IMG/VR virus record: IMGVR_UViG_3300035034_001123
Location: 1 to 34,659 of that record
Source: a virus
Length of the DNA stretch: 34,659 nt
Direction: 5' to 3' (one strand)
Shown: one piece after another, positions 744 to 24,290 of the stretch
How the letters are laid out: each line of letters begins with the position of its first letter
Position numbering within the stretch: position 1 is the stretch's first letter
Made by a program: the position numbers and the translations under genes
Notes under the pieces: generated by a model
The model's database searches: none
Seen by the model: only the letters and a program-made list of their open reading frames with translations
What the model was told of the DNA's origin: nothing

Positions 744-819
744 TGGAGTTGCCAGTCGGGAATGATCCGACGACCTCAGCAATACCAATGCTGTGCTCTA
801 CCAATTGAGCTATGGCAAC
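744..819 (-). tRNA. tRNA-Thr(GGT)
   Basis: Acceptor GTTGCCA/TGGCAAC, T stem GTCGG/CCGAC, anticodon loop TTGGTAT on a CAGCA/TGCTG stem. CCA encoded. Confidence 0.93.
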
Positions 820-828
820 ATTAAAGAG

Positions 829-913
829 CGGAGAGAAACGAACACGATTCGTAAAGCCTTGCGACTTCCATCTACTTTCCAAGTAGCGCCTCTACCTTAG
901 AGGTTTACTCTCC
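829..913 (-). tRNA. tRNA-Ser(GGA), CCA not encoded
   Basis: Acceptor GGAGAG/CTCTCC, anticodon loop TTGGAAA on CTAC/GTAG, long variable arm, discriminator G. The 3' end reads G-CTC rather than G-CCA, so CCA would have to be added. The 5' acceptor strand contains the stop codon of the neighbouring gene 905-1117. Confidence 0.85.
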
Positions 914-1117
914 AAATTCGACTAAGTCTAAACTATGTATCAAAGGATGTGATCTTCCTGGCAAAAGTAATGCTACTTGACCTGACTCAGTGTTACGTTC
1001 TATGTTTGGAATCATCTTTCTAACCCTCATGTCGGATACACCTAAAACATCAACCCAAGTATCCTTCGGATACAAATCATCGTGTACAACTAAATTATAT
1101 TTCAATTTCGCTTTCAT
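905..1117 (-). CDS. small hypothetical protein inside the tRNA array
   Basis: 70 aa, starts MKAKLKYNLVVHDDLYPKDT and ends LDLVEFGE. No family recognised. Regular codon pattern and a short basic N-terminus. Its TAA stop (905-907) lies inside the acceptor stem of tRNA-Ser(GGA), so gene and tRNA overlap by 9 bases and translation and tRNA maturation compete on that transcript. No clear Shine-Dalgarno; upstream is the AT-rich stretch 1120-1165. Confidence 0.5.
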   Translation of the reverse strand: MKAKLKYNLVVHDDLYPKDTWVDVLGVSDMRVRKMIPNIERNTESGQVALLLPGRSHPLIHSLDLVEFGE

Positions 1118-1167
1118 AGAACTTATAGTATATATAGTTGAAAACTTTAAAAATGTGTAAAAAAAAT

Positions 1168-1243
1168 TGGCAGGCCATAGAGGACTCGAACCCCTACTAA
1201 TTCGTCCGAAGCGAATCGTGCTAATCCATTACACTAATAACCC
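1168..1243 (-). tRNA. tRNA-Arg(TCG)
   Basis: Anticodon loop CTTCGGA on ATTCG/CGAAT. Acceptor GGGTTAT/ATGGCCT with G1-U72 wobble, discriminator G, CCA encoded. Confidence 0.9.
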
Positions 1244-1248
1244 GCAAA

Positions 1249-1371
1249 TGGTAGCAGCGAAGGGACTCGAACCCTCAATCCCTTACGGGCGCAAGATTTT
1301 TGCTAACCCTTCAAATCAAATTCAAAGAGTTGGAAAAAGTCTTGTGTGTATACCAATTCCACCACACTGCC
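1249..1371 (-). tRNA. tRNA-Leu with a 36-nt insertion in the anticodon loop
   Basis: All other parts are canonical for class II leucine tRNA: acceptor GGCAGTG/CGCTGCT, D arm, anticodon stem CAAGA/TCTTG (1340-1344 and 1292-1296), variable arm GCCCGTAAGGG, T loop TTCGAGT, CCA encoded. Between the two anticodon-stem strands lie 43 nt (1297-1339) instead of 7. The insert folds on itself: AACTCTT pairs with AAGGGTT around a 13-nt loop, and a T5 run can pair with an A5 run next to the stem. Removing 36 nt as CTT|AAAA gives loop CTTAAAA, anticodon TAA, with the break after position 34. Other breakpoints in the T/A runs would give TTA or TTT, so the mature anticodon is not certain. Confidence 0.8.
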
Positions 1372-1383
1372 ATAAATTGAAAA

Positions 1384-1460
1384 TGGTAGCCACAATCGGA
1401 TTCGAACCGACAGACATCACGTTTTAAGCATGATAGGCGTCCCTCTTACCTCATACGGCC
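1384..1460 (-). tRNA. tRNA with anticodon TAA (Leu codon UUA), short variable loop
   Basis: Anticodon loop CTTAAAA on TCATG/CGTGA, acceptor GGCCGTA/TGTGGCT (G1-U72), T arm GTCGG/CCGAT, discriminator A, CCA encoded. The variable region is only five nt (TGTCT), whereas bacterial leucine tRNAs are class II. Amino-acid identity is therefore uncertain. Confidence 0.85.
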
Positions 1461-1468
1461 ATAAAGAA

Positions 1469-1553
1469 AGCTGAGTAAGAGATTCGAACTCTTGTATGAT
1501 TTCTCATGATCGGGTTTGCAATCCGTCCTATTAGGCCACTCTAGCAACTCAGC
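1469..1553 (-). tRNA. tRNA-Cys(GCA) with long variable arm, CCA not encoded
   Basis: Perfect acceptor GCTGAGT/ACTCAGC, anticodon loop TTGCAAA, discriminator U as required for cysteine. Long variable arm with ATGA-GAAA-TCAT hairpin, so class II. The 3' end is T-TTC, not CCA. Confidence 0.85.
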
Positions 1554-1563
1554 ATAAATTAGA

Positions 1564-1650
1564 TGGTAGTCACGGTGGGATTCGGACCCACACGGCCTTT
1601 CGGCCACAACATCCTTAGTGTTGCGGGTCTACCAATTCCCCCACGCGACC
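1564..1650 (-). tRNA. tRNA-Leu(AAG)
   Basis: Class II with variable arm GGCC-GAAA-GGCC. Anticodon stem CAACA/TGTTG, loop CTAAGGA giving anticodon AAG; A34 is rare in bacterial leucine tRNAs. G1-U72, CCA encoded. Confidence 0.9.
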
Positions 1651-1746
1651 ATAAATTGTTCCCTTCCTACCACATCTCTGATCAAGAGAATAAGGGCCCA
1701 ACTGATCAAATTGAGAAACACGATTCGAACGCTATCGGAAATAAAT

Positions 1747-1830
1747 TGGTAGCGGTGAAGGGAGTCGAACCCTTATACCTTTCGGCCACTGAATTTGAAC
1801 CAGCTGCGTATACCTTTCCGCCACACCGCC
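1747..1830 (-). tRNA. tRNA-Leu(CAA)
   Basis: Acceptor GGCGGTG/CACCGCT, anticodon loop TTCAAAT on GCTGG/TCAGT, variable arm with GGCCGAAAGG tip, T loop TTCGACT, CCA encoded. Confidence 0.9.
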
Positions 1831-1900
1831 ATAAATTATTAGATCAGACTTTATTCAGCGTGACCATGTGTTCTCTCCGCCGTAAACATTTTGGGTTATT

Positions 1901-2269
1901 TTATTGTTCAACTGTAATCTTTTGAAGTTTCTCAGCGGATACCCCATTTGATCTAAGCGTGTCTGTAAATTCTTTCATAACAGCGTCAAACCGTTTACGA
2001 ACTCCATACAAGGTCGTTACGTCTTGATATTCAGCATCGTATATTTGTCCAGATTGACTAATTTCTTGAAACATGGCAGCCATTACCCAATTCCCCTTTT
2101 GTTTGAACAAACGATATCCATAGATACCATCCGAAGATAATGACAACGTATAACCTCCATTAACAGAATTAAACTTGAAATTCTTATCCGAATATAATAT
2201 CTGTCCTAATGAGGTTGATTTTACAAGTTCTGTTGAAAGGCTTTCCATGATTAGTGTTTTTAATTTCAT
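1901..2269 (-). CDS. hypothetical protein
   Basis: 122 aa beginning MKLKTLIMESLSTELVKSTS. Not recognised. Predicted mixed alpha/beta with a central strand-rich part (GGYTLSLSSDGIYGYRLF) and a helical C-terminus (RKRFDAVMKEFTDTL). It follows gene 2281-3030 by 11 nt and is probably in the same transcript. The N-terminus resembles that of the neighbour (short amphipathic LK-x-L-LxE helix), which may mark a shared packaging or assembly signal; that is inference only. Confidence 0.65.
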   Translation of the reverse strand: MKLKTLIMESLSTELVKSTSLGQILYSDKNFKFNSVNGGYTLSLSSDGIYGYRLFKQKGNWVMAAMFQEISQSGQIYDAEYQDVTTLYGVRKRFDAVMKEFTDTLRSNGVSAEKLQKITVEQ

Positions 2270-2280
2270 ATTAATATATA

Positions 2281-3030
2281 TTAGTGATTGGAATCATTTC
2301 CCACATCAAAGAGTTTTTTAATCAAATGATTGGTTACAGTAACACTTGTACTTGAAAAGTATTTTCTTAGTTTCTCAATACCCGACCACTTCTTCTTGTG
2401 AATGGATGGTTTGTAACCTGATAACACCGTGCCGTTGAGGTCCACTAAAACAACCACTCCTTCTTTTATAGAAGTCACAACATAAATTTTTGATCCTCTG
2501 CTTTCAACCGTAAATTTAAGAGTATCTGTCTTTTTTAAGACCTCTCTTATTTCATCGACGGTTTTTAGTTCTGAAACGTCAACTGATTTTTGAATTATAG
2601 AAACTAACATAGATTCATACCTATCAGTCAAAACTTTAAGATGACTAGCAATTTTTTGCTCCTCTGGATGTAATTCGTCTTTAAGTGAAATCTTGTCATT
2701 TACCATATCCATAGTGTTTATTACAACACCTTTTGGATACGGATACCCAAATCCTTTTTCCGGTCGTTCGTTTTGACTGTTAAGTAAAATAGAATTCGGA
2801 GAGTTCTTAATAATCTTGTTAGTCTCAGATATAACCTTTTCATACAATTCAAGATCAAATTCATATCCGTGTTTTATAGCATGACTCATTAAACCATGAG
2901 TTTTTCCTTTTGTAATGTATTTGTCGTTGGGATTGAAAACGAACACAGTTTTAGCACCCGATGGTCTATCGGAGTCGTAACCTGATTGAAACTTAATGTC
3001 TTCATTCAACAAACGTTTTAAAGTAATCAT
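2281..3030 (-). CDS. hypothetical protein
   Basis: 249 aa from the ATG at 3028-3030 (MITLKRLLNEDIKFQSGYDS); a TTG 21 nt upstream is less likely. Middle region contains THGLMSHAIKHGYEFDLELY, a histidine-rich stretch, followed by a helical region and a C-terminal strand-rich part (GSKIYVVTSIKEGVVVLVDL). No family assigned. TATTTATA lies three bases before the start, as in gene 32423-33550. It forms a two-gene block with 1901-2269 inside the tRNA array. Confidence 0.7.
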   Translation of the reverse strand: MITLKRLLNEDIKFQSGYDSDRPSGAKTVFVFNPNDKYITKGKTHGLMSHAIKHGYEFDLELYEKVISETNKIIKNSPNSILLNSQNERPEKGFGYPYPKGVVINTMDMVNDKISLKDELHPEEQKIASHLKVLTDRYESMLVSIIQKSVDVSELKTVDEIREVLKKTDTLKFTVESRGSKIYVVTSIKEGVVVLVDLNGTVLSGYKPSIHKKKWSGIEKLRKYFSSTSVTVTNHLIKKLFDVGNDSNH

Positions 3031-3066
3031 GACTATAAATATAACCCACAAGTGAATTTAGTTAAA

Positions 3067-3141
3067 TGGTGCGGATGGAGGTAATCGAAACCTCATCTCA
3101 ACGTTGGCAACGTCATGTAATAGCCGTTATACGACATCCGC
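3067..3141 (-). tRNA. tRNA-Gly(GCC)
   Basis: Acceptor GCGGATG/CATCCGC, anticodon loop TTGCCAA, T loop TTCGATT, CCA encoded. Confidence 0.92.
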
Positions 3142-3151
3142 GTAAATAAAA

Positions 3152-3236
3152 TGGTAGTCGGAGAGGGACTCGAACCCTCATACCTTTCGGCACTAGAGCC
3201 TAAATCTAGCGTGTCTACCAATTCCACCACCCGACC
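3152..3236 (-). tRNA. tRNA-Leu(TAG)
   Basis: Class II, anticodon stem CTAGA/TCTAG, loop TTTAGGC, variable arm GCCGAAAGGT, acceptor GGTCGGG/TCCGACT with G1-U72, CCA encoded. Confidence 0.93.
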
Positions 3237-3547
3237 ATATAAATTAAAATCTGTAAATGAACCGTAGCTAACCGTTCAACCAATGCGGGTTATGGATAGT
3301 CATACGTTTGTCCGGAATGTGTATGATAATCGAACCGCGTGCCGCAAGAACAAACCCTTAATAGGTTCCGCTAACCATTGTCAGATAAAAGGAGCCAAAT
3401 ACGGTTCTTCGTATCCTATTACTGGGTATACACTGGAAGTGATTTTATTACACTAAACTGACTTAAAACCGGCAGTAACTTTTGATTTGTCAACAATAGT
3501 TCCTTTGGAAGCGAACATCCGTATTACTGTATGAGTACTATTTTTTA
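3237..3547. other. 311-bp stretch with no recognised gene
   Basis: No credible ORF. Contains a T-arm-like GCGGTTCGATT near 3325-3345 without the rest of a cloverleaf and a short hairpin CACT-TCC-AGTG near 3430. Probably spacer with decayed tRNA pieces. Confidence 0.4.
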
Positions 3548-3624
3548 TGGTGGGAAATATCAGATTTGAACCGAATACCCAAGTGTACAAAAAATAGAAT
3601 GTTATCAGATTAGACTATGTGGAC
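3548..3624 (-). tRNA. degenerate tRNA-like sequence
   Basis: Exactly 77 nt between the usual TTTATG leader and an encoded ACCA end, with a T-arm-like TCGG-TTCAAAT-CTGA. The 5' strand (GTCCACA) does not pair with the 3' strand (ATTTCCC) and no standard anticodon arm is visible. Likely a decaying tRNA. Confidence 0.4.
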
Positions 3625-3632
3625 ATAAATTG

Positions 3633-3883
3633 TTTGATTGCGTCAATAGCCAGGGTTCTGTTTTACAGATTGACATTTGTCTCAGAAGAATTCTTCTGGT
3701 AACGTGCTAATAGTTACTGCCCTCTACCTGCTGCTATGAGAACGATTACTCTACAGCGACTTGAGGTTACATCTACCTTGGCGTGTTAACGACTTACGTC
3801 TCCGCTCGGCTCGTTGGATGGCCTGAACTTGTCCTCAAAAACAAGGCTTTACTTGTTCCTGTGTCAATCTTTCAGCAATCAAA
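3633..3883 (-). ncRNA. rnpB: RNase P RNA (phage-encoded, compact)
   Basis: Catalytic RNA of RNase P, which removes 5' leaders from pre-tRNAs. Read on the minus strand: P1 is a 9-bp helix TTTGATTGC (3875-3883) with GCAATCAAA (3633-3641); P2 is GATTGACA (3862-3869) with TGTCAATC (3668-3675); P3 is AACAAG/CTTGTT (3840-3857). The conserved GAGGA-box follows P3 (3831-3838). P4 pairs AAGTTCAGG (3822-3830) with CCTGGCTA (3647-3654), keeping the universal bulged U and showing an A-U change relative to the E. coli CCGGG/CCCGG. The 3' core AGACAAATG...ACAGAACCCTGGC matches the bacterial AGATGAATG...ACAGAACCCGGC. Length is 251 nt against 377 in E. coli, so the specificity domain is reduced. It lies inside the tRNA array on the same strand. 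No protein subunit gene is seen, so it would depend on the host protein. Confidence 0.93.
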
Positions 3884-3898
3884 ATGGTGATCAATAAT

Positions 3899-4102
3899 CT
3901 AAAGTAATTTCACCCTCAAAAATCGATATCCAATAAAATTTGGTGTATTGTTGGCATACTCTACTTCAGAAGCAATCACATACGGGTATTCTGTATAGAA
4001 TTGGATTAGTCGTAATATAGGATTACATACCAATTTAATTGGGGTTCGGTGGGCGATATACCCATCGTCAAAAGTAACAAAGTATTTATTTTTCTTATTC
4101 AT
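3899..4102 (-). CDS. small hypothetical protein between RNase P RNA and a tRNA
   Basis: 67 aa, MNKKNKYFVTFDDGYIAHRT at the N-terminus, ending in a basic RFLRVKLL. Not recognised. Starts directly after the 3' end of the tRNA-like gene at 4109, without a visible Shine-Dalgarno sequence, and stops (TAG) 15 nt before the RNase P RNA 5' end. Confidence 0.45.
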   Translation of the reverse strand: MNKKNKYFVTFDDGYIAHRTPIKLVCNPILRLIQFYTEYPYVIASEVEYANNTPNFIGYRFLRVKLL

Positions 4103-4108
4103 AATCGG

Positions 4109-4198
4109 TGAACGTGACAGGATTCGAACCTGCTATTGAAGTACAGGATCACCCTCTTCATATTATGGCTTCTAACCGACCAATCGGTGTCTCCGTTC
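4109..4198 (-). tRNA. irregular tRNA-like gene, anticodon unclear
   Basis: Good T arm (GCAGG-TTCGAAT-CCTGT) and D-like arm (ACCGA-TTGG-TCGGT), acceptor GAACG/CGTTC with two inner mismatches, 3' end A-CCG. The region between D and T arms is too long; GAAG/CTTC can pair around a 27-nt loop containing CATAATATG. It may be a class II tRNA, an interrupted one or a pseudogene. Confidence 0.5.
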
Positions 4199-4203
4199 AA
4201 AAA

Positions 4204-4277
4204 TGGTAGTTCCTACTGGATTCGAACCAGTGTCTCTCAGTAATCGGCCAAGCGTTGCGCCACTCAACTAAGAAGAC
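4204..4277 (-). tRNA. tRNA-Ile(GAT), degenerate acceptor
   Basis: T arm ACTGG-TTCGAAT-CCAGT perfect, D stem GTTG/CAAC, anticodon loop CCGATTA (C33 instead of U33). Acceptor GTCTTCT/AGGAACT has two mismatches. A better tRNA-Ile(GAT) occurs at 9245. CCA encoded. Confidence 0.65.
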
Positions 4278-4370
4278 ATAAATTATTTAAATCGGTTCTT
4301 CATTATTCCACGACTACGGATTCCTAAAAGGAATCCTTCAAGTCTTTGGCGAATTGAAACCTTATCAAAA

Positions 4371-4445
4371 TGGCGGGAGCCTAGGGATTCGAGCCCTATC
4401 CTACTGAGCTTCAATCAGCCATGCCACCAGTTACACCAGACTCCC
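4371..4445 (-). tRNA. tRNA-Phe(GAA)
   Basis: Acceptor GGGAGTC/GGCTCCC, anticodon loop TTGAAGC on GCTGA/TCAGT, T loop CTCGAAT, CCA encoded. Confidence 0.9.
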
Positions 4446-4504
4446 ATGAACTCGGCCATTATTTACATTCACTTTCGTCAAGAGGTAAACCGAGTAATTA
4501 AAAA

Positions 4505-4578
4505 TGGCAGGACATAAAGGATTTGAACCCTTACAAGCAGGTTTGGAATCTGCGGTGCTACCGTTACACTAATGCCCC
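4505..4578 (-). tRNA. tRNA-Trp(CCA)
   Basis: Anticodon stem GCAGA/CCTGC, loop TTCCAAA, discriminator G, acceptor GGGGCAT/ATGTCCT with G1-U72, CCA encoded. Confidence 0.92.
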
Positions 4579-4583
4579 ATAAA

Positions 4584-4660
4584 TGGCGGGATGTACCGGA
4601 TTCGAACCGGCAGATCGCTCGCGTGACAGGCGAGTGCTTTGCCAATTAAGCTAACACCCC
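4584..4660 (-). tRNA. tRNA-Asp(GTC), copy 1
   Basis: Acceptor GGGGTGT/ACATCCC, anticodon stem CTCGC/GCGAG, loop CTGTCAC, discriminator G, CCA encoded. Confidence 0.93.
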
Positions 4661-4720
4661 ATAAATTATTAATAGTCTCTCCTAATAGTCAAGCCGTTTT
4701 GAACCGCTTTAGAAAATAAA

Positions 4721-4812
4721 TGGTGTTATGTCTCAGGTCGTTATTGGACGGGAAAGGCTCTACTAGATACACCTTTTTAACCCTTGGTTATCCAACCCTC
4801 AATGAACACAAC
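4721..4812 (-). tRNA. irregular tRNA-like gene, anticodon unclear
   Basis: Seven-pair acceptor GTTGTGT/ACATAAC, discriminator A and encoded CCA, with the usual TTTATG leader. The body (92 nt in all) is unusual: hairpin TTGG-ATAA-CCAA, a stem AAAGG/CCTTT around a 14-nt loop, and no standard T loop. Confidence 0.5.
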
Positions 4813-4817
4813 ATAAA

Positions 4818-4893
4818 TGGAGCCGCCTACCCGATTTGAACGGGTGACATCCATATTACAAGTATGGCGCTCTACCAACTGAGCTAAGGCGGC
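4818..4893 (-). tRNA. tRNA-Thr(TGT)
   Basis: Acceptor GCCGCCT/AGGCGGC, anticodon stem CCATA/TATGG, loop CTTGTAA, T loop TTCAAAT, CCA encoded. Confidence 0.94.
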
Positions 4894-4898
4894 ATAAA

Positions 4899-5111
4899 TT
4901 ATTTAAGTTTTTCTTTAAATTGTTTAAATAGATTTCCGTTATACGCAAATCCATGTTCGGTGAATGCCTTCGATAAGACTTTCCCATTATTCATATAAGA
5001 TTCATATATCAAGTCGAAATGGTCATTGACCACGTTAGGTTTACTATCAATAACACACTGACGACTACAAGTTTTTCTCTTAGAATCGGATTTGAATGAA
5101 TCCCCACACAC
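4899..5111 (-). CDS. small zinc-ribbon-like protein
   Basis: 70 aa from a GTG at 5109-5111. N-terminus reads CGDSFKSDSKRKTCSRQC, the second half of a C-x-x-C-G...C-S-x-x-C zinc knuckle; the open frame continues upstream to a further cysteine (INCSKSSVCG) but has no good start there. The C-terminal half is helical. Such knuckles occur in HNH and other homing endonucleases, so this may be a remnant of one. No Shine-Dalgarno seen. Confidence 0.4.
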   Translation of the reverse strand: MCGDSFKSDSKRKTCSRQCVIDSKPNVVNDHFDLIYESYMNNGKVLSKAFTEHGFAYNGNLFKQFKEKLK

Positions 5112-5177
5112 CGAACTTTTTGAACAGTTGATTACAAATTACAAATTAAGGCGGCAATAATAAATTAATGATCACGA

Positions 5178-5245
5178 TATAGTAGATTGGATTCGAACCA
5201 ATGTCTCCGGCCGTCAAGGCCAGCGTATTATCCGCTATACTACGT
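5178..5245 (-). tRNA. tRNA-like gene with anticodon loop CTTGACG (TGA)
   Basis: T arm ATTGG-TTCGAAT-CCAAT and anticodon stem CTGGC/GCCGG are good, D stem AGCG/CGCT. Overall body resembles Glu/Asp tRNAs, variable loop four nt, yet the loop gives anticodon TGA (Ser codon UCA). The acceptor pairs only with a bulge (TAGTA/TACTA) and CCA is absent. Possibly non-functional. Confidence 0.5.
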
Positions 5246-5578
5246 CCATCACAAAATTCACAACTGTTAGCGCAGTTGTTTCAAATGAGGTAATCATACA
5301 TCCACCCAACTCCACTAAAAGTTGAGTTTCAGAAATTGATGGAACCGCTGAACGATTCCGTTACCTTTTCTACACATGGCAGATAGGTTAAAAAGTTTTT
5401 TATTCACCGCTAAGCGTCGAATTTTTACAGGCAATAATTACTTGCCTCCTGACGTAAGGCCTTACGGAGCAGGGAATCTCACAGTATTATTGAGCCATGT
5501 ATCTCCGATAAGGTTGCGGTCCTTGGGAGCCAATACTTCTTTCATCTGTGCTAATCAGACTTCTGCGTGAATAAAAAA
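5246..5578. other. gene-free, hairpin-rich block
   Basis: 333 bp with no convincing ORF. Contains a perfect 7-bp hairpin ACAACTG-TTAGCG-CAGTTGT (5261-5280), CAACT/AGTTG (about 5309-5327), AGGCAA/TTGCCT (about 5430-5453) and the 12-bp palindrome GTAAGGCCTTAC (about 5455-5466). May be a structured RNA; not assigned. Confidence 0.4.
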
Positions 5579-5654
5579 TGGAGCAGAAGGTGGGAGTTGA
5601 GCCCACAACCGTCTCGTTGGAAACGAGGTGCTCTGCCGATTGAGCTACTTCTGC
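5579..5654 (-). tRNA. tRNA-Gly(TCC), copy 1
   Basis: Acceptor GCAGAAG/CTTCTGC, discriminator U, anticodon loop TTTCCAA, T loop CTCAACT, CCA encoded. Confidence 0.92.
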
Positions 5655-5660
5655 ATTAAA

Positions 5661-5748
5661 TGGTGGTGTCATGCGGAATCGAACCACCCCCCCATTACAG
5701 AGAACGGATTTACAGTCCGCGTGTTAGAACCACTAACTTTATGACACC
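5661..5748 (-). tRNA. tRNA-Tyr(GTA), copy 1
   Basis: Class II. Acceptor GGTGTCA/TGACACC, anticodon stem GCGGA/TCCGT, loop CTGTAAA, long variable arm, CCA encoded. Confidence 0.92.
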
Positions 5749-5971
5749 ATATATAAATTGTAGACCTCGTTATACCGACTCTTACGGTTATCTTAGATGA
5801 CGTCAACGGATCAGAAACACATCACAGTTTTCTCGATAAGAGCGACTTATCGATTAATTTACAACACGTCTCATGTAAGCACTATCTGCATGATAATTTG
5901 ACGGGTTTCCCAGCTTTCTTTTGACACAATATGATTAGGGATGCTTGCCCTAAAATTGATCGTTGTAAAAA

Positions 5972-6047
5972 TGGTAGTTCCATTGGGACTCGAACCCAAA
6001 TCTTTTGCTTAGAAGGCAAAGGCCCTAATCCTTTAGACGATGGAACC
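5972..6047 (-). tRNA. tRNA-Arg(TCT)
   Basis: Acceptor GGTTCCA/TGGAACT with G1-U72, anticodon stem TTTGC/GCAAA, loop CTTCTAA, CCA encoded. Confidence 0.93.
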
Positions 6048-6065
6048 ATTTGGGTACATAAGAAA

Positions 6066-6142
6066 TGGTGCACCGAGTGAGATTCGAACCCACGAGCATC
6101 TGCTTGGAAGGCAGTGACAATAGGCCGCTATGTGACCGGTGC
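6066..6142 (-). tRNA. tRNA-Gly(TCC), copy 2
   Basis: Acceptor GCACCGG/TCGGTGC, anticodon loop CTTCCAA, T arm GTGGG-TTCGAAT-CTCAC, discriminator A rather than U, CCA encoded. Confidence 0.88.
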
Positions 6143-6144
6143 GT

Positions 6145-6230
6145 AAAAAGTTATCTATTTCAGATTTAATGTATCTCCGACTTTCTTGTGCCGGTGACTT
6201 TACCATTAGTCCAATTGATAATTCACTTTA
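6145..6230 (-). pseudogene. tRNA fossil
   Basis: Retains a D arm (GAC-TAATGGTAAA-GTC) and an anticodon-like stem CCGGC/GTCGG with an 8-nt loop, but no proper T arm, acceptor stem or CCA. Confidence 0.45.
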
Positions 6231-6233
6231 AAT

Positions 6234-6310
6234 TGGTGGAAAATATCGGTAACGATCCGATCAGCCTACAAACGTGCAAAGTTCGTGCGGGTAACCCACG
6301 CCCATCCCCC
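6234..6310 (-). tRNA. tRNA-Ala(TGC), copy 1
   Basis: Anticodon loop TTTGCAC on CGAAC/GTTTG. Acceptor GGGGGAT/ATTTTCC with three consecutive G-U pairs, T arm ATCGG/CCGAT, CCA encoded. The cleaner copy is at 7318. Confidence 0.82.
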
Positions 6311-6322
6311 ATATAAATTCTA

Positions 6323-6516
6323 CGGTAACTACGGAGACATTCAAAGTTTCTCAACGTATTTACCGACCAACTCAAAGTTGGATTTTATCTTCATTTATTT
6401 ATGGTTTTAAAATTTCACCCCTCTCTGATTACTCAGGTTTGGATGCCATTTTTAAATGACGTTTAACCTAAATTTTTTATTTGGTCTTAGGAACCAATGG
6501 TCAACTTTAATAGTTG
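6323..6516 (-). ncRNA. structured RNA element, copy 1 of 2
   Basis: Paralogue of 10590-10803. A 108-bp core (6391-6498) is identical to 10674-10781 at 103 positions. On the RNA: 5' hairpin TCAACT/AGTTGA, stem-loop TTGGT-TCCTAAG-ACCAA, core with GTCATTT/AAATGGC, then hairpin CCAACT/AGTTGG, then a domain closed by CGGTAA/TTACCG holding TACG/CGTA and TTGAGA...TCTC. The flanking stems differ in sequence from the second copy but pair in the same places. It lies just downstream of promoter 6529-6556 and upstream of tRNA-Ala. Not a family I recognise. Confidence 0.75.
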
Positions 6517-6528
6517 ATGATGTATATA

Positions 6529-6556
6529 ACTATACACGACAGATATTCAAAGTCAA
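6529..6556 (-). promoter_or_regulatory. sigma-70-type promoter
   Basis: TTGACT (6551-6556), 16-bp spacer, TATAGT (6529-6534). Would start about 10 nt before structured RNA copy 1 and drive the tRNAs below 6310. Confidence 0.8.
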
Positions 6557-6598
6557 CCCTTTTTTATAAAAAAGTGAGAAATTTACAATAATTTAAAG

Positions 6599-6674
6599 TG
6601 GAAGCCGATAGGAGAATCGAACTCCCGTCTTCACATTGAGAATGTGACATCCTGGTCCACTAGACGAATCGGCC
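6599..6674 (-). tRNA. tRNA-Glu(CTC)
   Basis: Acceptor GGCCGAT/ATCGGCT with G1-U72, anticodon stem TCACA/TGTGA, loop TTCTCAA, discriminator U, CCA encoded. Confidence 0.9.
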
Positions 6675-6745
6675 ATAATCTCAGATTTGCCAGGCCGGCT
6701 CTGAGAAAGCCTTTGAAGGATACAATACCTCTGGTATGAATCAAA

Positions 6746-6840
6746 TGGTAGTCAGTAAGGGATTCGAACCCTTATCATCCCCTCATCTAGGAGCATAGCC
6801 AGTGTATAAAACTGGAGCATTACCATTATGCTAACCGACC
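6746..6840 (-). tRNA. tRNA with anticodon TAT (Ile), long variable arm
   Basis: Acceptor GGTCGGT/ACTGACT, D arm GCATAATGGTAATGC, anticodon stem CCAGT/ACTGG, loop TTTATAC, perfect T arm AAGGG/CCCTT, CCA encoded. A 25-nt variable region can form CTCC/GGGG, unlike normal class I isoleucine tRNA; bacteria mostly read AUA with a CAT tRNA carrying lysidine. Confidence 0.75.
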
Positions 6841-6938
6841 ATAAAAATAAGTGGTTCCCTCAGTTCACCAATTCACGGTTTAACGGACCGGCGTGTTACG
6901 TTGCGTATTACTTTGACACTACGAAGGAATAAATAGAA

Positions 6939-7013
6939 TGGCAGGTCTAAGAGGATTTGAACCCCTACCCCAAAGACCAAAACTTTGTGTGCTAGCCGTT
7001 ACACTATAGACCC
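6939..7013 (-). tRNA. tRNA-Gln(TTG), copy 1
   Basis: Anticodon stem CAAAG/CTTTG, loop TTTTGGT, acceptor GGGTCTA/TAGACCT, discriminator G, CCA encoded. Confidence 0.92.
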
Positions 7014-7019
7014 ATAAAT

Positions 7020-7110
7020 TAATTGTAAATCATCACTCACATCAAACTGAGTTAACAGCCTCGGACTTCGAACCCGATATAGTGTCCCGTTGAGTGTATT
7101 TATACACAAT
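7020..7110 (-). pseudogene. tRNA fossil (T arm only)
   Basis: Perfect T arm TCGGG-TTCGAAG-TCCGA followed by seven bases and no CCA; no matching 5' acceptor or anticodon arm. Confidence 0.4.
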
Positions 7111-7121
7111 GATTCACAAAA

Positions 7122-7195
7122 TGGCAGGTATACGAGGATTTGAACCCCGAATATTTGGATCAGAACCAAACGTGTTACCGTTACACTATATACCT
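7122..7195 (-). tRNA. tRNA-Gln(CTG)
   Basis: Acceptor AGGTATA/TATACCT, anticodon stem TTTGG/CCAAA, loop TTCTGAT, discriminator G, CCA encoded. Confidence 0.92.
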
Positions 7196-7317
7196 ATAAA
7201 CTTTAAATATCAGAAGCCTTTCGTGTCTTCCCGATGTCCCCCACGTTGTAATTAAATGGCAATCAGTAATTCCCGGTATTCTTCAAAGCCGAAACTTTGT
7301 TATCCGCCGCTCATAGA

Positions 7318-7393
7318 TGGTGGAGGTAAACGGGATCGAACCGATGACCTATTGCTTGCAAAGCAACCGCTCTACCGACTGAGCTATACCCCC
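7318..7393 (-). tRNA. tRNA-Ala(TGC), copy 2
   Basis: Acceptor GGGGGTA/TACCTCC, anticodon loop TTTGCAA, discriminator A, CCA encoded. Confidence 0.93.
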
Positions 7394-7557
7394 ATAAATT
7401 TAAAAGAAATAATAAGGATTTATTACATCTACATAACCGAACTTTTGTTATGTATCTCTATATCGTAAATGTTGGATAGCTCTTACCCATTTATTCATCT
7501 ACATTATATATACAACCTCATATTTCTTTATGGTATCGCATCATGGGATACCTTAAA

Positions 7558-7633
7558 TGGTAGACGATACGGGATTCGAACCTGTGACCTTTGGTATGTA
7601 ACACCACTGCTCTAGCCGCTGAGCTAATCGTCC
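7558..7633 (-). tRNA. tRNA-Val(TAC)
   Basis: Acceptor GGACGAT/ATCGTCT with G1-U72, anticodon stem TGGT/ACCA, loop GTTACAT, CCA encoded. Confidence 0.92.
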
Positions 7634-7646
7634 ATAAAAATTAAAA

Positions 7647-7724
7647 TGGTCGCGGAGACAGGATTCGAACCTGCGGCATCCGACTCCCAAAGACGGCGCT
7701 CTGACCAAGCTGAGCTACTCCACG
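7647..7724 (-). tRNA. tRNA-Pro(TGG)
   Basis: Acceptor CGTGGAG/CTCCGCG, anticodon loop TTTGGGA, discriminator A, CCA encoded. Confidence 0.93.
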
Positions 7725-7823
7725 TAAATAAATTTGATACGCTTTGTCAGTCCTCCGCTTTTGGAGAAACACTTCAGCATTAACTGTTAAGAGGTTCATA
7801 TCTCACCTATCGTGTCATGACAA

Positions 7824-8165
7824 CTAAGTCAAGTCCCACCACATAGAATTCTTCATTTCAACGAAGAGTGTATCATCCCAATCGTTGAGACGACTTCTCA
7901 TTACGTTTTTGTTTTTGGCACGACGTCGTCTACTTGAGGATTGTTTGTAACTCTTAGTATCACCACCGTGATAACCAACAGGGAATCCCTTGTCGAAATA
8001 ACGAGCTGTCTTTTCGATAGTCTTACTGTAATCCTTTTTGGAATTCTCAAATTCTTCTTTCAAAGATTTTTGAGGATACCGACTATAAAAATAGAAAGGG
8101 CACATAATTCTAGCCTTCCTACGAGCTTTCTCTTTATACTTCTTGTTTAGTTCATATCTGTTCAT
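7824..8165 (-). CDS. basic hypothetical protein
   Basis: 113 aa, strongly basic: N-terminus NRYELNKKYKEKARRKARIM and an internal SSSRRRRAKNKN, ending in WWDLT. No family recognised; could bind RNA or DNA by charge. Weak Shine-Dalgarno GAG eight nt before the ATG. Stop codon TAG. It is an island in the tRNA array, so it is probably translated from the unprocessed tRNA transcript. Confidence 0.6.
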   Translation of the reverse strand: MNRYELNKKYKEKARRKARIMCPFYFYSRYPQKSLKEEFENSKKDYSKTIEKTARYFDKGFPVGYHGGDTKSYKQSSSRRRRAKNKNVMRSRLNDWDDTLFVEMKNSMWWDLT

Positions 8166-8221
8166 ATTTACTCAAAAAGAGTAGCCGAACTAAATTGAAC
8201 TTTGTTTTTGTTTTTCATAAA

Positions 8222-8296
8222 TGGCAGGTCTACTCAGAATCGAACTGAGGCTATTTGCTTCAAAGGCAATATTGCTACCACTACAATCATAGACCA
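8222..8296 (-). tRNA. tRNA-Gln(TTG), copy 2
   Basis: Anticodon loop CTTTGAA on TTGC/GCAA, T arm CTCAG/CTGAG. Acceptor TGGTCTA/TAGACCT with a U-U first position, discriminator G, CCA encoded. Confidence 0.85.
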
Positions 8297-8611
8297 ACAA
8301 ATGGGATAAAAGCGCCGCCGTAATATACGTCAAGTTCTCATTAATCCGAGCTTATCTGGATTGACTGAGGCTAACTCTTAAAGTGAGTATTGTCACAATA
8401 TACACAGCTATTAAATTTGTCAATATGAACACGTTACATTATGCCGCAATCCAGCGGAAATACCGCCGTTAAGTTACTCTAAAATTGACACTTCATATCA
8501 CGACGATCCAACCATCCGTATCTTATAAAGAAATTGTCATGATTAGCTGTCACACTAATATTTCCGCACTAAAACGCCCGGCGTCCTAAACATTTAGACG
8601 ACATGAACAAA
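8297..8611. other. gene-free stretch containing a promoter
   Basis: No credible ORF. Apart from the promoter at 8395-8423 it holds short hairpins: AATCC/GGATT (about 8341-8360), GCGG-TATTT-CCGC (about 8455-8467) and ACGC/GCGT (about 8573-8583). Confidence 0.4.
8395..8423 (-). promoter_or_regulatory. sigma-70-type promoter inside the tRNA array
   Basis: TTGACA (8418-8423), 17-bp spacer, TATTGT (8395-8400). Positioned to drive the tRNAs from 8296 downward. Confidence 0.65.
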
Positions 8612-8692
8612 TGGTGGCCAAGGTAGGATTTGAACCTACGTTTCCTTCCGGAATATGGAAGGCGTCCTGTATCGCAATTAGACGACCTGGCC
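8612..8692 (-). tRNA. tRNA with anticodon ATT (Asn)
   Basis: Acceptor GGCCAGG/CTTGGCC, T arm GTAGG-TTCAAAT-CCTAC, anticodon stem CTTCC/GGAAG, loop ATATTCC. A34 is unusual. Enlarged D region. CCA encoded. Confidence 0.78.
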
Positions 8693-8702
8693 ATAAATTA
8701 AA

Positions 8703-8777
8703 TGGAAGCGCATGAGGGTATCGATCCCTCTTCTCAGATTTGAAAAAACTGAATCCTAGCCAGTAGACGAATGCGCC
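8703..8777 (-). tRNA. tRNA-Glu(TTC)
   Basis: Acceptor GGCGCAT/ATGCGCT with G1-U72, T arm GAGGG/CCCTC, anticodon loop TTTTCAA, discriminator U, CCA encoded. Confidence 0.88.
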
Positions 8778-8786
8778 ATAAAAATT

Positions 8787-8863
8787 TGGAAGCACCGGTG
8801 AGACTTGAACTCACGACTTTCGCCTTATGAAGGAGACGCTCTAACCAACTGAGCTACGGTGCC
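8787..8863 (-). tRNA. tRNA-Met(CAT), elongator type
   Basis: Acceptor GGCACCG/CGGTGCT with G1-U72, anticodon loop TTCATAA, T arm GTGAG/CTCAC, CCA encoded. An isoleucine (lysidine) tRNA cannot be excluded from sequence alone. Confidence 0.85.
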
Positions 8864-8943
8864 ATAAATTAATCGTTTTGTAAACTTCTAAATTTCATAT
8901 GATGGTAATGAGTTCAACTTTATTGAACTTTTATTGAATAAAG

Positions 8944-9017
8944 TTGCAGGAATCAGAATCGAACTGATTTTATGTTCTGGTTATGAGCCAGAGAGAATGC
9001 CTTACCCCCCTCCTGCG
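8944..9017 (-). tRNA. initiator tRNA-fMet(CAT), CCA not encoded
   Basis: Acceptor CGCAGGA/TCCTGCA has the initiator-specific C1:A72 mismatch, discriminator A, anticodon loop CTCATAA on TCTGG/CCAGA, T arm ATCAG/CTGAT. The 3' end reads A-CTT, so CCA is added after transcription. The D arm is unusual (GGGG/TCTC). Confidence 0.85.
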
Positions 9018-9074
9018 CTAAATTAATGAACATACGACTAACTTAACATATGTGTTAAACTAACAGTATGAAAA

Positions 9075-9149
9075 TGGTGGGCTATAAGAGGATCGAACTC
9101 CTGTCTCATCCTTCGCAAAGATACGTGTTATCCGTTACACTAATAGCCC
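9075..9149 (-). tRNA. tRNA-Arg(GCG)
   Basis: Acceptor GGGCTAT/ATAGCCC, anticodon loop TTGCGAA on TATCT/GGATG, T loop TTCGATC, CCA encoded. Confidence 0.87.
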
Positions 9150-9154
9150 ATAAA

Positions 9155-9230
9155 TGGTGGATATGATGGGCAACGATCCCATAACCTTTCGTTTAAGAGA
9201 CGAATACTCTGCCGATTGAGTTACATATCC
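9155..9230 (-). tRNA. tRNA-Lys(CTT)
   Basis: Acceptor GGATATG/CATATCC, anticodon stem TTCGT/ACGAA, loop CTCTTAA, T arm ATGGG/CCCAT, CCA encoded. Confidence 0.93.
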
Positions 9231-9244
9231 ATGAAAATTATAAA

Positions 9245-9319
9245 TGGTCCCTGAGGAGAATTTCGAAATCTCGACCTATCGGTTATCAACCGATTGCTCT
9301 CCCTCTGAGCTACCCAGGG
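9245..9319 (-). tRNA. tRNA-Ile(GAT)
   Basis: Acceptor CCCTGGG/CTCAGGG, anticodon stem ATCGG/CCGAT, loop TTGATAA, CCA encoded. The intact isoleucine tRNA of the array. Confidence 0.92.
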
Positions 9320-9456
9320 TTGAAAAATTATCATCTATTATAAAGTTGTGTTTGTTGTTAGGGTTACGAATTATCTACACTCTGTTTACCCAACATTACA
9401 ACCAACAAAGCCGTTCCTCAATTACTGGTGTCGCTGTTTTAATCCAGATCAGAAAA

Positions 9457-9531
9457 TGGCGCCGTTACGGAGAATTGAACTCCGATTTGAAGATTGACAA
9501 TCTTCCGTCCTAACCGTTAGACGATAACAGC
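9457..9531 (-). tRNA. tRNA-Asp(GTC), copy 2
   Basis: Acceptor GCTGTTA/TAACGGC, anticodon stem GAAGA/TCTTC, loop TTGTCAA, discriminator G, CCA encoded. Confidence 0.92.
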
Positions 9532-9538
9532 ATAAAGA

Positions 9539-9614
9539 TGGTAGGAGCGATGGGGCACGATCCCACAACCAATGAATTAAAAGTTCACGGCTCTACCGAT
9601 TGAGCTACACTCCC
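9539..9614 (-). tRNA. tRNA-Lys(TTT), copy 1
   Basis: Acceptor GGGAGTG/CGCTCCT, anticodon stem GTGAA/TTCAT, loop CTTTTAA, CCA encoded. Confidence 0.92.
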
Positions 9615-9679
9615 ATAAAAAGTTAATTACATAACACGGATTCGAACCCAACTGGAACCTTTTCCGTTATACAAAAAGG

Positions 9680-9751
9680 AGTCCTCTATCGGATTCACAC
9701 CGATTTCATTCTCATGTACTTGAGAATACGTTACTATCTAACCGAGAAGAC
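9680..9751 (-). tRNA. tRNA with irregular anticodon loop
   Basis: Seven-pair acceptor GTCTTCT/AGAGGAC, D arm GTTA/TAAC, T arm ATCGG-TGTGAAT-CCGAT. The anticodon arm is ATTCTC/GAGAAT around an 8-nt loop AAGTACAT, so the anticodon is ambiguous. The 3' end reads T-CCT. Confidence 0.65.
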
Positions 9752-9756
9752 ATAAA

Positions 9757-9831
9757 TGGTAGGCCTGAGGAATATTGAAATCCTGCACATCTCCTTAAAA
9801 GGGAGCCGCTCTGCCTCTGAGCTACAGACCC
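9757..9831 (-). tRNA. tRNA-Lys(TTT), copy 2
   Basis: Acceptor GGGTCTG/CAGGCCT with G1-U72, anticodon stem CTCC/GGAG, loop CTTTTAA, CCA encoded. Confidence 0.91.
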
Positions 9832-9941
9832 ATAAAATTAATTACAACCCGTCATCCAAGGTGTAAACATTGTAACATAATCGAGTTAACGATTGAATGG
9901 ATATGTCTTCGAAGAATCTTAATTTTTCTTCGGTTGTAAAA

Positions 9942-10034
9942 TGGTGGAAGAAGAGAGAATTGAACTCTCACTGTGTCTTAGCACACTACGGGTTTACAAT
10001 CCGCGCCGACTTAACCAATATTCGGGTCTCTTCC
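9942..10034 (-). tRNA. tRNA-Tyr(GTA), copy 2
   Basis: Class II. Acceptor GGAAGAG/TTCTTCC, anticodon loop TTGTAAA, variable arm GTGT/ACAC, T arm GAGAG/CTCTC, CCA encoded. Confidence 0.9.
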
Positions 10035-10292
10035 ATAATAAAATTGCAACACAAGAAATCGAATTAAAACTTGTGTAAGTCTGTTGATTCGCCAGTCCGG
10101 TCTGGTTCAACGAAACCTCCTACGATTTTTTAAATTAATGATGATAGACATTCACAACACAGTTATTAACTGAGAGGGGTGGCTGATGTTTACCTTGCGG
10201 CATCCGTTACATCTTTGTTCCACACCTATTACGTGTTACCTATCATCCGACAAGGATACAGTCGAAACGTTTTACGATCCGTTTATAAAGCG

Positions 10293-10364
10293 GGTGGTAT
10301 ACGAGATTTGAACTCGCTCACTTTGCGTCACAGGCAAATATGCTGCCAATACATCAATACCACC
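10293..10364 (-). tRNA. tRNA-His(GTG), CCA not encoded
   Basis: Acceptor GTGGTAT/ATACCAC with an extra G at -1 opposite discriminator C, the histidine identity pair. Anticodon stem TTTGC/GCAAA, loop CTGTGAC. The 3' end reads C-CGC. Confidence 0.9.
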
Positions 10365-10373
10365 ATAAAAATC

Positions 10374-10476
10374 ATGATACACCCAACTTGCATGGATTGT
10401 ATAGTTCGATAACGACATCACCTTAAAGGTTCTGTTTTTGAGGATATCGACCCTCAACGTTTTCATTAGGTATCAT
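10374..10476 (-). tRNA. tRNA-like RNA, probably decayed
   Basis: Seven-pair terminal stem ATGATAC/GTATCAT with a T-arm-like ATCCA-TGCAAGT-TGGGT directly beside it, as in a tRNA. The rest (hairpins TTGAGG/CCTCAA and ACCTT/AGGT, 103 nt in all) does not make a standard cloverleaf and CCA is missing. Confidence 0.35.
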
Positions 10477-10488
10477 AAATATTTAAAT

Positions 10489-10578
10489 TGGCTCCGTTTC
10501 GAGGATTCGAACCTCGCCCACCTTTCGATGGTCATCGGATTAACAGTCCGTAGCTTTCACCAAGCCAGCCCAAACGGA
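10489..10578 (-). tRNA. tRNA-Asn(GTT) with long variable arm
   Basis: Acceptor TCCGTTT/AAACGGA, anticodon stem CGGA/TCCG, loop CTGTTAA, discriminator G, CCA encoded. The variable arm CCATC-GAAA-GGTGG makes it class II, unlike normal asparagine tRNA. Confidence 0.85.
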
Positions 10579-12484: not shown

Positions 12485-12739
12485 TCAACCAGTCACCATT
12501 ACACTCAAATCATTAACAACCTCTCTCCATATATCAAACACTTGTTCGTCATCGTCATCAAAGTCAGTGTCATACATAAAATCCATAAGATTATTAAATT
12601 CAAAATCGACCTTACTCAAGCTACGAATATCAACAGCAAACTGTAGAGATTCAATCATGTCATGGTATCGAACGTGAAAATCATATGGTTTCACAGCTAT
12701 ATGAAACTCCAAGAAACTAAGTTTGTCAGTAATATTCAT
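12485..12739 (-). CDS. acidic hypothetical protein
   Basis: 84 aa, acidic, with DFMYDTDFDDDDEQVFDIWR near the C-terminus. Not recognised. Its ATG overlaps the ligase stop codon by one base (TAATG), so it is probably translationally coupled to the ligase. Confidence 0.65.
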   Translation of the reverse strand: MNITDKLSFLEFHIAVKPYDFHVRYHDMIESLQFAVDIRSLSKVDFEFNNLMDFMYDTDFDDDDEQVFDIWREVVNDLSVMVTG

Positions 12740-14733
12740 TAATTAAAAAAGTCTTTAAGTGTATCGTTAAAATTGTTGAGTTTAGATATACCGACTATCT
12801 GTTGAAAATCGTCTCTTGATACGATGTCAATTCCTAAGTCTTTAGCTTTTGTCGTCTTGCCACTGACAGCATCAGTATCGTTAGCAACTACAAGAGTTGT
12901 CTTTTTAGATACCCCACTGACAATTTCGCCGCCATTAGACTCAACAAACGTTTCCCATTCCTTGTTTCGGAAACCCGTGAAACAAATTTTCTGGCCATCA
13001 AACTTCTGACCAGAAGGTGTTTGATCTGTTGTTATAACAGTGACTTTGGATTTGATATCGTTGTAATATTCTACAAATTCATTCAAACCCTCAAGAATGA
13101 TTGAAGCGGTCTTTTTGTCAAATCCATCAGTACCAGAAATTTCTTTTTCTGTAATCTTACCTTCTAATAATTCCGCAGGATTTCTCAGTTGTTTAACAAG
13201 CATCTTAAACTTACGAACACCAACACCAACACCAAATGAAGGATAACTACCCAGCAAAGTTTCAAGTGCAATCGGATTGAGTTTTGAGGCGATGCCCTTG
13301 GCAATCTTCTCACCATTCTTTCCGATGATACCCTTCAACTGAGTTGAAGTCATGTTCACAATCTTCTCAGGCGTGTTATATCCATGTTCAATGATCTTCT
13401 TGATACTTCCCTCTTTCAAGTTTGGAATGTCAAGAGCAGTCGCCCATGAAGTTAATCGTTTCAATGCCACATCTGAGTTTGAAGACTTGTCTTTCAATAC
13501 CAAATCGACGTCCGTTTCATTCCACTCATAGTCTTCTATGTTTTCAGGCATTTCTGCGACCGCTGGTGTAATAACTTCTAAGATATAAGGAATAACATCA
13601 CCACTACGGGTCATTTTTACAACCGCACCTTTACCAATTTTATTTTCTTGGATATACTTTGCGTTGAAGCCTGTAGTGTGAGAAATTGTTACACCTTGAA
13701 GATTAAACGGAATCAATTTGATTCGTGGTTTAGCCTTGCCGTGTTTAGAGACGTTCCATTCAACACAATCGACGGTCGCTGAATAAATATTTTCAATATC
13801 AGTAATTTTATATTTGATGGAATATGCTGGATTGATAGAGTCTGACTTTCGTGAGTTGGACAACTTTTCTCTAACATCTGAATCGTCAACATCGATTACA
13901 ATCCCATCGATATCGTAGTCTAAAAGTTTCTTACGTTCGATGATGTAACCGTTTAACGTTTCGTCTGTAAGTTCAAAGTCTTCGAAGATTTTATAACCAA
14001 CGGTCTTGAACCCCAACGACTTTAATTCAGTTAGTTGTTGAGTTTTTGCCATATAAAAATGTGATGTAACTGGCATGATTTCATACGCAAAACAATCTAC
14101 ATATCTAAATAGACCAACAGGGGAGGAATCGGTATTCAATACCCCTGCCATGAAGTTCCTAGCATTCTTATACTGATCCCCACCTTTCCGAGTGTAAATA
14201 CTAACAATCTTATCGAAATTGATATTAGAAATCTCAATCTCAACACGTACTGTGACCTTACGTCCTACGTTCTTTGGAACCGATGGAATTTGTTTTACGT
14301 GTCGTGTAATGTCTTGGCCTTCGTAACCATCCCCTCGTGTTAAAGCGATTTGTAAAGTTCCGTCTGTACCGTAAACCAACAGAGCAGAAATACCGTCCAT
14401 CTTATCAGTGATGATGAATCGTTGGTCATTTAGATTTTTATTCTTAATCCATTTTCCAATTTCACCGAATTGAACTTGGTCAAGACTTCCCATTGTATAC
14501 GGAAGTTTAATTTTATCAGTACGAACTGAGGAACCTATACCCAAGAAATATTGGTTTGTAGGGTCAATTTTCCCAGCGATAACACGGAGAGAGTCATACT
14601 CCGAATCCGTAATAAATGATTCCCCGTCGTTCGTATATTTGTCATCCGATAAAGATAACAAGTTAAAAATCTCATCGACTTCATCAGACGACTGATCATT
14701 TAAAATTGACAATACTTTCTCGCGGTTGTTCAT
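12739..14733 (-). CDS. ligA: NAD-dependent DNA ligase, zinc finger lost
   Basis: 664 aa. Seals nicks in DNA using NAD+. A partial Ia-like region (ITDSEYDSLR) is followed by the adenylation domain with the lysine motif KMDG at residues 111-114, then RNFMAG, DGIVIDVDD and SIKYK. The OB domain (KIGKGAVVKMTRSGDVIPYI) leads directly into the helix-hairpin-helix region and a C-terminal BRCT domain (GQKICFTGFRNKEW ... about 590-655). The four-cysteine zinc finger normally between OB and HhH is absent: no cysteines occur in that stretch. Start and stop overlap neighbours (TAATG on both sides), placing it in a coupled four-gene operon with the MBL protein. It probably joins Okazaki fragments of the phage. 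Confidence 0.95.
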   Translation of the reverse strand: MNNREKVLSILNDQSSDEVDEIFNLLSLSDDKYTNDGESFITDSEYDSLRVIAGKIDPTNQYFLGIGSSVRTDKIKLPYTMGSLDQVQFGEIGKWIKNKNLNDQRFIITDKMDGISALLVYGTDGTLQIALTRGDGYEGQDITRHVKQIPSVPKNVGRKVTVRVEIEISNINFDKIVSIYTRKGGDQYKNARNFMAGVLNTDSSPVGLFRYVDCFAYEIMPVTSHFYMAKTQQLTELKSLGFKTVGYKIFEDFELTDETLNGYIIERKKLLDYDIDGIVIDVDDSDVREKLSNSRKSDSINPAYSIKYKITDIENIYSATVDCVEWNVSKHGKAKPRIKLIPFNLQGVTISHTTGFNAKYIQENKIGKGAVVKMTRSGDVIPYILEVITPAVAEMPENIEDYEWNETDVDLVLKDKSSNSDVALKRLTSWATALDIPNLKEGSIKKIIEHGYNTPEKIVNMTSTQLKGIIGKNGEKIAKGIASKLNPIALETLLGSYPSFGVGVGVRKFKMLVKQLRNPAELLEGKITEKEISGTDGFDKKTASIILEGLNEFVEYYNDIKSKVTVITTDQTPSGQKFDGQKICFTGFRNKEWETFVESNGGEIVSGVSKKTTLVVANDTDAVSGKTTKAKDLGIDIVSRDDFQQIVGISKLNNFNDTLKDFFN

Positions 14734-22617: not shown

Positions 22618-22644
22618 TTTTTAAATCTATTTATAACCGACAAT

Positions 22645-23886: not shown

Positions 23887-23895
23887 ATAGTTTTA

Positions 23896-24198: not shown

Positions 24199-24290
24199 AG
24201 TAGCCTTTCTTTAAGTTAAACTACATATAAATATCGATGGAATGTGTTAGGCGACTAAAAACTCATTAAACTTATATCGTGTGTTGAATT

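Follow-up and report, generated by a model that had tools for sequence, protein, structure and literature searches.

Using exact patterns, at least 27 distinct tRNA genes with a short insert between positions 34 and 35 of the anticodon loop were identified: that of the window (the whole 34,659 nt stretch of DNA analysed here, a tRNA-rich virus fragment from IMG/VR), 25 further genes from IMG/VR, and one from GTDB. The inserts are 27 to 50 nt. Leu(UAA) accounts for 24 of these genes, with one each for Leu(CAA) (L224), Val(UAC) (L297), and a tRNA with a CAU anticodon (L363). Judged from the gene sequences, the inserts are probably mini-introns that are excised by enzymes, the tRNA halves then being resealed by a phage RNA ligase. 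Their recurrence at one site with differing hairpins suggests a new type of small tRNA intron in bacterial viruses. In the literature searched, mostly non-subscription, such inserts in phage tRNAs seem to be undescribed, and an earlier description is possible.

The interrupted tRNA-Leu(UAA) gene of the window

The window encodes a T4-like DNA polymerase, which is spread over two ORFs, an NAD-dependent DNA ligase, a clamp loader, and a Clp-type protease. An array of approximately 38 tRNA genes (744 to 10578, minus strand) was identified with ARAGORN and the Rfam tRNA model, and it holds the interrupted tRNA-Leu(UAA) gene at 1249 to 1371, also on the minus strand. A sequence-only reading had called this a class II leucine tRNA, and it is one: all stems are paired (acceptor 7/7, anticodon 5/5 as CAAGA/TCTTG, T 5/5), there is a long variable arm, A73 and an encoded CCA are present, and the Rfam tRNA model matches at its full length over the whole gene with 41.5 bits. 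The anticodon loop is 43 nt, made up of CTT, a 36 nt insert (1301 to 1336), and AAAA, just as had been read. The 5' exon (1371 to 1337), GGCAGTG..CAAGACTT, was delimited from the sequence and from uninterrupted relatives and ends in C32 U33 U34. The 3' exon (1300 to 1249), AAAATCTTG..CCA, starts with A35 A36 A37 A38 and continues through the variable arm, T arm, acceptor, and CCA. The break had been placed after position 34, which is the sole cut that gives back Leu(UAA). Without its intron option ARAGORN overlooks the unspliced gene; when introns are allowed, it lists the gene as a tRNA with an intron, c[1249,1371], and the spliced form is called as tRNA-Leu(taa).

The insert is a putative mini-intron of the type described below as class A. 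It consists of a 5' linker, TTTCC (1332 to 1336), the first four positions of which correspond to the consensus YUNC, a hairpin (1305 to 1331, AACTCTTTGAAT-TTG-ATTTGAAGGGTT), and a 3' linker, AGCA (1301 to 1304). The hairpin had been described as 7 bp, which understates it; the computed fold has 12 bp, including 3 G-U pairs, closed by a TTG loop. It is nevertheless the weakest hairpin of its class, with a fold that taken alone is borderline against dinucleotide shuffles (p ~0.05), and the z for the whole gene is -2.2. The insert is placed above chance because 26 further distinct tRNA genes share the insertion point, nearly all of them with far stronger hairpins.

The 28 nt 5' half of the gene is identical at 21 other IMG/VR loci, and a plain CTTAAAA loop is present in all 21. 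Therefore, an ordinary tRNA-Leu(UAA) of phages has here gained the insert. A sequencing error, to be recognized by absence of the insert elsewhere, had been named as what would undo the original observation; this is countered by the same architecture in many unrelated contigs, a recurrence that rules out either an error or a single freak.

Other tRNA genes of the window are also unusual. Adjoining the interrupted gene is a UAA-anticodon tRNA with the short variable loop of class I (1384 to 1460), and a tRNA with the Cys anticodon GCA has a long, Ser/Leu-like variable arm (1469 to 1553). Long variable arms unusual for the isotype are found in a 95 nt tRNA-Ile(UAU) (6746 to 6840) and a 90 nt tRNA-Asn(GUU) (10489 to 10578). 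A protein search with the neighbouring ORF at 2281 to 3051 gave no relatives. The two consecutive ORFs of the DNA polymerase, with a homing endonuclease gene close by, are in the stretches 21136 to 23886 and 25610 to 26293, and a DruA-like protein is encoded at 26543 to 27760.

Recurrence, exons, and architecture of the inserts

Searches of IMG/VR with gapped DNA patterns of the anticodon loop gave four further cases at once and later more. A stricter pattern including the T arm matched 31 stretches, of which 27 are genuine cases of an interrupted tRNA-Leu(UAA) and come from 21 distinct genes. The 27 genes of the final set are these 21 plus the window gene, L038, L224, L297, L363, and L205, the last from a bacterial MAG. 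In matches such as L026, L034, and L036 the gene is ordinary and another AAAA lies downstream of it; these chance pattern matches were removed by hand. Since the stricter pattern fixes both the CTT and the AAAA run, a second pattern was used that fixes neither. It gave 24 stem-forming interrupted Leu tRNAs, of the form CTT^..^AAAA in 20 cases and TTC^..^AAAA in one. A structural descriptor search, demanding only U33 and a hairpin of the loop, regained the class A cases with the identical junction. All clear cases are split at 34/35, where position 34 is always a pyrimidine and position 35 is always A. The split point or identity is ambiguous in three other tRNA genes with a 9 to 11 bp hairpin in the anticodon loop (L028, 605 to 701; G028, 27824 to 27925; G018, 95009 to 95117).

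Against the 27 real loci in IMG/VR, the strict pattern gave a single credible locus in 84,980 GTDB genomes (257 Gb). Of 12 matches there, ten arose by chance upstream of an ordinary tRNA gene and one (L199) has an anticodon loop of normal size, leaving L205, in an Armatimonadetes MAG, as the only one that looks real. No phage hallmark was found within 8 kb of L205, and an interrupted gene of this type is absent from the 100 relatives examined. Among isolated phages (INPHARED), eight loci opened behind half-tRNA matches held no interrupted gene, being ordinary tRNAs or half-tRNA matches that are likely attachment sites.

The exons, anticodon stems, and identity of the interrupted genes are intact. 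In its default mode, without the intron option, ARAGORN called none of the 27 unspliced genes; following removal of the insert at 34/35, it called the expected tRNA in all 27. With the cut moved by 1 to 3 nt, nearly all were assigned another identity or anticodon, apart from a few in which flanking bases are repeated. The genes lack the decayed stems or anticodon of a pseudogene: all 27 exon pairs give the expected anticodon and the stems of the window gene are fully paired. Most of the longer contigs have no Leu(UAA) gene besides the interrupted one. For example, G010 has 43 tRNAs including those with anticodons cag, caa, gag, and tag, and has Leu(UAA) only as the interrupted gene. An uninterrupted gene with the identical anticodon is also present in G023, G026, and G028.

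It is unlikely that the insert is never removed and that the tRNA body is a stable scaffold for showing the hairpin, which might serve as a decoy for a tRNA-cutting defence nuclease or make the gene a dead allele resistant to a homing endonuclease. A scaffold would have no need to preserve U34, A35-A36, or the constant 34/35 placement, yet the exons remain correct Leu(UAA) in 24 genes, most often with no other such gene on the contig. This weighs against the length and good form of the hairpins, the GIY-YIG homing endonuclease genes among the tRNA genes in several contigs, and the second UAA-anticodon tRNA of the window, which would all suit a scaffold.

Two classes of insert can be distinguished. 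Class A comprises 21 genes, including that of the window. The 5' linker is usually 4 to 5 nt and usually YUNC, with T at position 2 in 18 of 20 and C at position 4 in 15 of 20, the hairpin is 7 to 13 bp and exactly 10 bp in 12 genes, and the 3' linker is 2 to 5 nt, usually 3. Apart from that of the window, every class A insert (20/21) folds better than its dinucleotide shuffles (p<=0.008), and the mean fold z of the full set of 27 inserts is -4.0. A hairpin is thus preserved although the sequence that forms it varies, with wide differences between groups. Within one group (L025, L384, L187, L191, and L174) the inserts are 74 to 94% identical and the exons 68 to 79%. For four of these (L025, L384, L191, and L174) the insert identity of 0.78 to 0.94 exceeds that of the flanking exons, 0.70 to 0.74. 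This suggests that the insert itself is conserved or is mobile between tRNAs.

Class B comprises four genes (L042, L177, L181, and L205) with inserts of 47 to 50 nt, in which the stem starts at the 5' junction or no more than one base from it. In three of the four, ACCA, or ACC completed by the A of the exon, directly follows the closing stem at the end of the insert. The inserts of L181 and L205 hold a hairpin like that of a T arm (GAG-TTCAATT-CTC and AAGG-TTCGATA-CCTT, respectively). The class B insert thus resembles a miniature tRNA set within the anticodon loop. The inserts of L043, L186, and L176/L184 are at 34/35 without the class A plan and stand outside both classes.

Known introns and the proposed removal of the inserts

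The group I introns in tRNA-Leu(UAA) of cyanobacteria and plastids occupy the same junction as the phage inserts, after U34. The phage inserts differ from these in being about 30 to 50 nt rather than about 200 to 300 and in having no core and no terminal G. The remark that 36 nt is too short for a group I intron was right, and it extends to the whole set: at 27 to 50 nt there is no catalytic core (P3-P8), and Rfam sees only tRNA at these genes. The group I rule for the ends, by which the 5' site is preceded by U and the intron ends in G, does not hold either, the last base being A, T, C, or G and position 34 being C in L224 and L363. The coincidence of insertion point and tRNA might suggest that the inserts are the remnants of decayed group I introns and the tRNAs pseudogenes. 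This is highly improbable, given the lack of any Rfam intron match, the presence of the inserts in Val and CAU tRNAs as well, and a common hairpin plan, for independent decay would not converge on a 10 bp hairpin and a YUNC linker. All phage group I introns known by 2014 were in protein genes, despite the many phage tRNA genes (PMC3984707).

The tRNA introns of bacteria are described as group I only, enzymatic tRNA splicing being a feature of archaea and eukaryotes (PMC3400036). Like the protein-spliced introns of the latter, which in archaeal tRNAs are 16 to 44 nt (PMC3400036), the phage inserts are short, lie in the anticodon region of an otherwise normal precursor, and would be removed by cutting and ligation, as proposed here. 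Unlike them, they are at 34/35 rather than 37/38 and are in bacterial-type tRNAs. The bulge-helix-bulge motif (3 nt bulge, 4 bp, 3 nt bulge) is not present, with 0 or 1 of the 4 central helix pairs formed in the 13 members tested. No splicing endonuclease of the EndA family (PF01974) was found in 28 records, with positive controls in four archaea; IMG/VR contigs are mostly fragments. The RtcB ligase (PF01139) was found in none of 30 virus contigs.

RNA ligases of the T4 type are encoded on contigs with the interrupted genes, Rnl1 (PF09511) in 8 of 31 records and Rnl2 (PF09414) in 16 of 31. One or the other is present in all 11 contigs of at least 120 kb at E<=0.001, nine above the curated cut-off and two weakly. 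Large control contigs have Rnl1 or Rnl2 matches in 19 of 26, from which 11 of 11 does not differ significantly. The co-occurrence is consistent with a role for the ligases and not proof of one, because the controls match too. A relative of Pnkp was found, with a single-protein query, in 4 of 30 contigs; therefore either the cut would leave 5'-phosphate and 3'-hydroxyl ends or other healing enzymes would serve. The 34.7 kb fragment that is the window holds no RNA ligase gene. The best single piece of enzyme evidence is the linkage in contig G024, where the interrupted tRNA-Leu (L194, 21947 to 22067) is followed after 18 bp by Rnl1 (from 22085) and then by Pnkp (23998 to 24942). In addition, G024 has a second class A tRNA (CAU, 14536 to 14643), 1 kb after an Rnl2 gene (12519 to 13535). 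A comparison of gene content across contigs gave no convincing candidate for the nuclease that makes the cut; metallophosphoesterase, PhoH, and GIY-YIG and HNH endonucleases were shared.

Intervening sequences in rRNA are a known phenomenon in bacteria, and those of 23S rRNA are excised without re-joining. Their anatomy, a hairpin within a structural RNA, is that of the phage inserts, so the hairpin could be imagined to be excised by RNase III or another nuclease to leave a nicked tRNA. This is very unlikely. The 3 nt and 4 nt that lie beyond the 5 bp stem do not fit the 2 nt 3' overhang of RNase III, a tRNA nicked in its anticodon could not decode, and ligase types that seal nicks are encoded in all of the large contigs. 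Unlike the 23S rRNA, the exons of the interrupted tRNAs need to be joined to decode.

A closer likeness is to the T4 system, in which Pnkp and Rnl1 reseal the anticodon-loop break made by PrrC (PMC3400036, PMC10264068). In both, phage enzymes would seal an anticodon-loop break, and in G024 the cassette is directly behind the interrupted tRNA-Leu. The difference is that the break here would belong to the maturation of a tRNA encoded by the phage itself and would free a hairpin from it. The excerpts available from jumbo-phage reviews treat RNA ligases as tRNA repair enzymes and do not mention such inserts (PMC7824862, PMC13282480). For the archaeal virus HGTV-1, Rnl2 ligases have been considered as possibly serving tRNA introns (PMC8651126).

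From the site, exons, hairpin plan, recurrence, and ligase genes seen in the sequences, we infer the cutting, the joining, and the enzymes as follows. The precursor would fold as a tRNA with the hairpin stacked past the anticodon stem, and a host or phage nuclease would cut on the 3' side of U34 and on the 5' side of A35. The halves, kept together by the tRNA body, would then be joined by a T4-type RNA ligase of the phage, either Rnl1 or Rnl2, after end-healing by Pnkp where it is present, giving tRNA-Leu(UAA). For class B, resemblance to a mini-tRNA suggests that excision may be by RNase P and tRNA 3' processing. The sequence-only reading had offered a new small intron, an RNA repaired by end-joining, or a dead tRNA; the first two combined are favoured and the third is disfavoured. 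With moderate confidence this can be widened to viruses of bacteria in general, which would have widespread protein-removed tRNA mini-introns, always at 34/35, with class A hairpins removed via a dedicated nuclease and class B nested mini-tRNAs via RNase P and tRNA 3' processing, both then resealed by phage RNA ligase.

If true, bacterial cells would have their first case of tRNA splicing by cutting and ligation, and T4-type RNA ligases a second natural job. Phage tRNA inserts that recur, are structured, and do not self-splice would break the division between group I introns in bacteria and enzymatic splicing in archaea and eukaryotes, and would supply a biological substrate for the RNA ligases and kinases of many large phages. 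It is plausible that the uncut precursor hides the anticodon loop from defence nucleases or from homing endonucleases directed at tRNA genes; a review of tRNA introns considers the attack of anticodon nucleases on an anticodon that is exposed (PMC4090602). The inserts would thereby suggest how a phage could conceal the anticodon or delay its exposure. They would also mean that a set of phage tRNAs is overlooked by standard tRNA finders.

Other unusual genes in the phage contigs

A second group of interrupted tRNA genes (Lys, Asn, Thr, Ile, and Gly) has an insert of approximately 45 to 55 nt that splits the anticodon stem at 28/29. The inserts begin with TA, contain one hairpin, and share a conserved (A)CAGCAA; no Rfam family fits them. 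Splitting at 28/29 gave a perfect tRNA in 18 of 78 class I candidates and in none of the shuffled controls. Members include L313 (905 to 1029), L324 (477 to 593), L293 (615 to 737), L292, L295, L326, and L348. Very common among the matches listed (L056 to L171, for example L082 at 2408 and L101 at 2795) are tRNA-Leu-like genes of the form AGTCAGGTGGCGGAATTGG...CAGGTTCGAATCCTGTCCTGACTAC, in which acceptor, D, and T arms are present and 60 to 90 nt lie between them with no anticodon stem.

In several contigs with interrupted tRNAs, GIY-YIG endonuclease genes are dispersed within the tRNA arrays. In G024 (22085 to 24005; L469, 16871 to 18791) Rnl1 is split by an ORF on the opposite strand that resembles the neighbouring GIY-YIG endonucleases. 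The contig with the interrupted tRNA-Val, L297, has a short bacterial-type RNase P RNA at 4742 to 4963 (80.7 bits, E 5.7e-23, under the Rfam gathering score).
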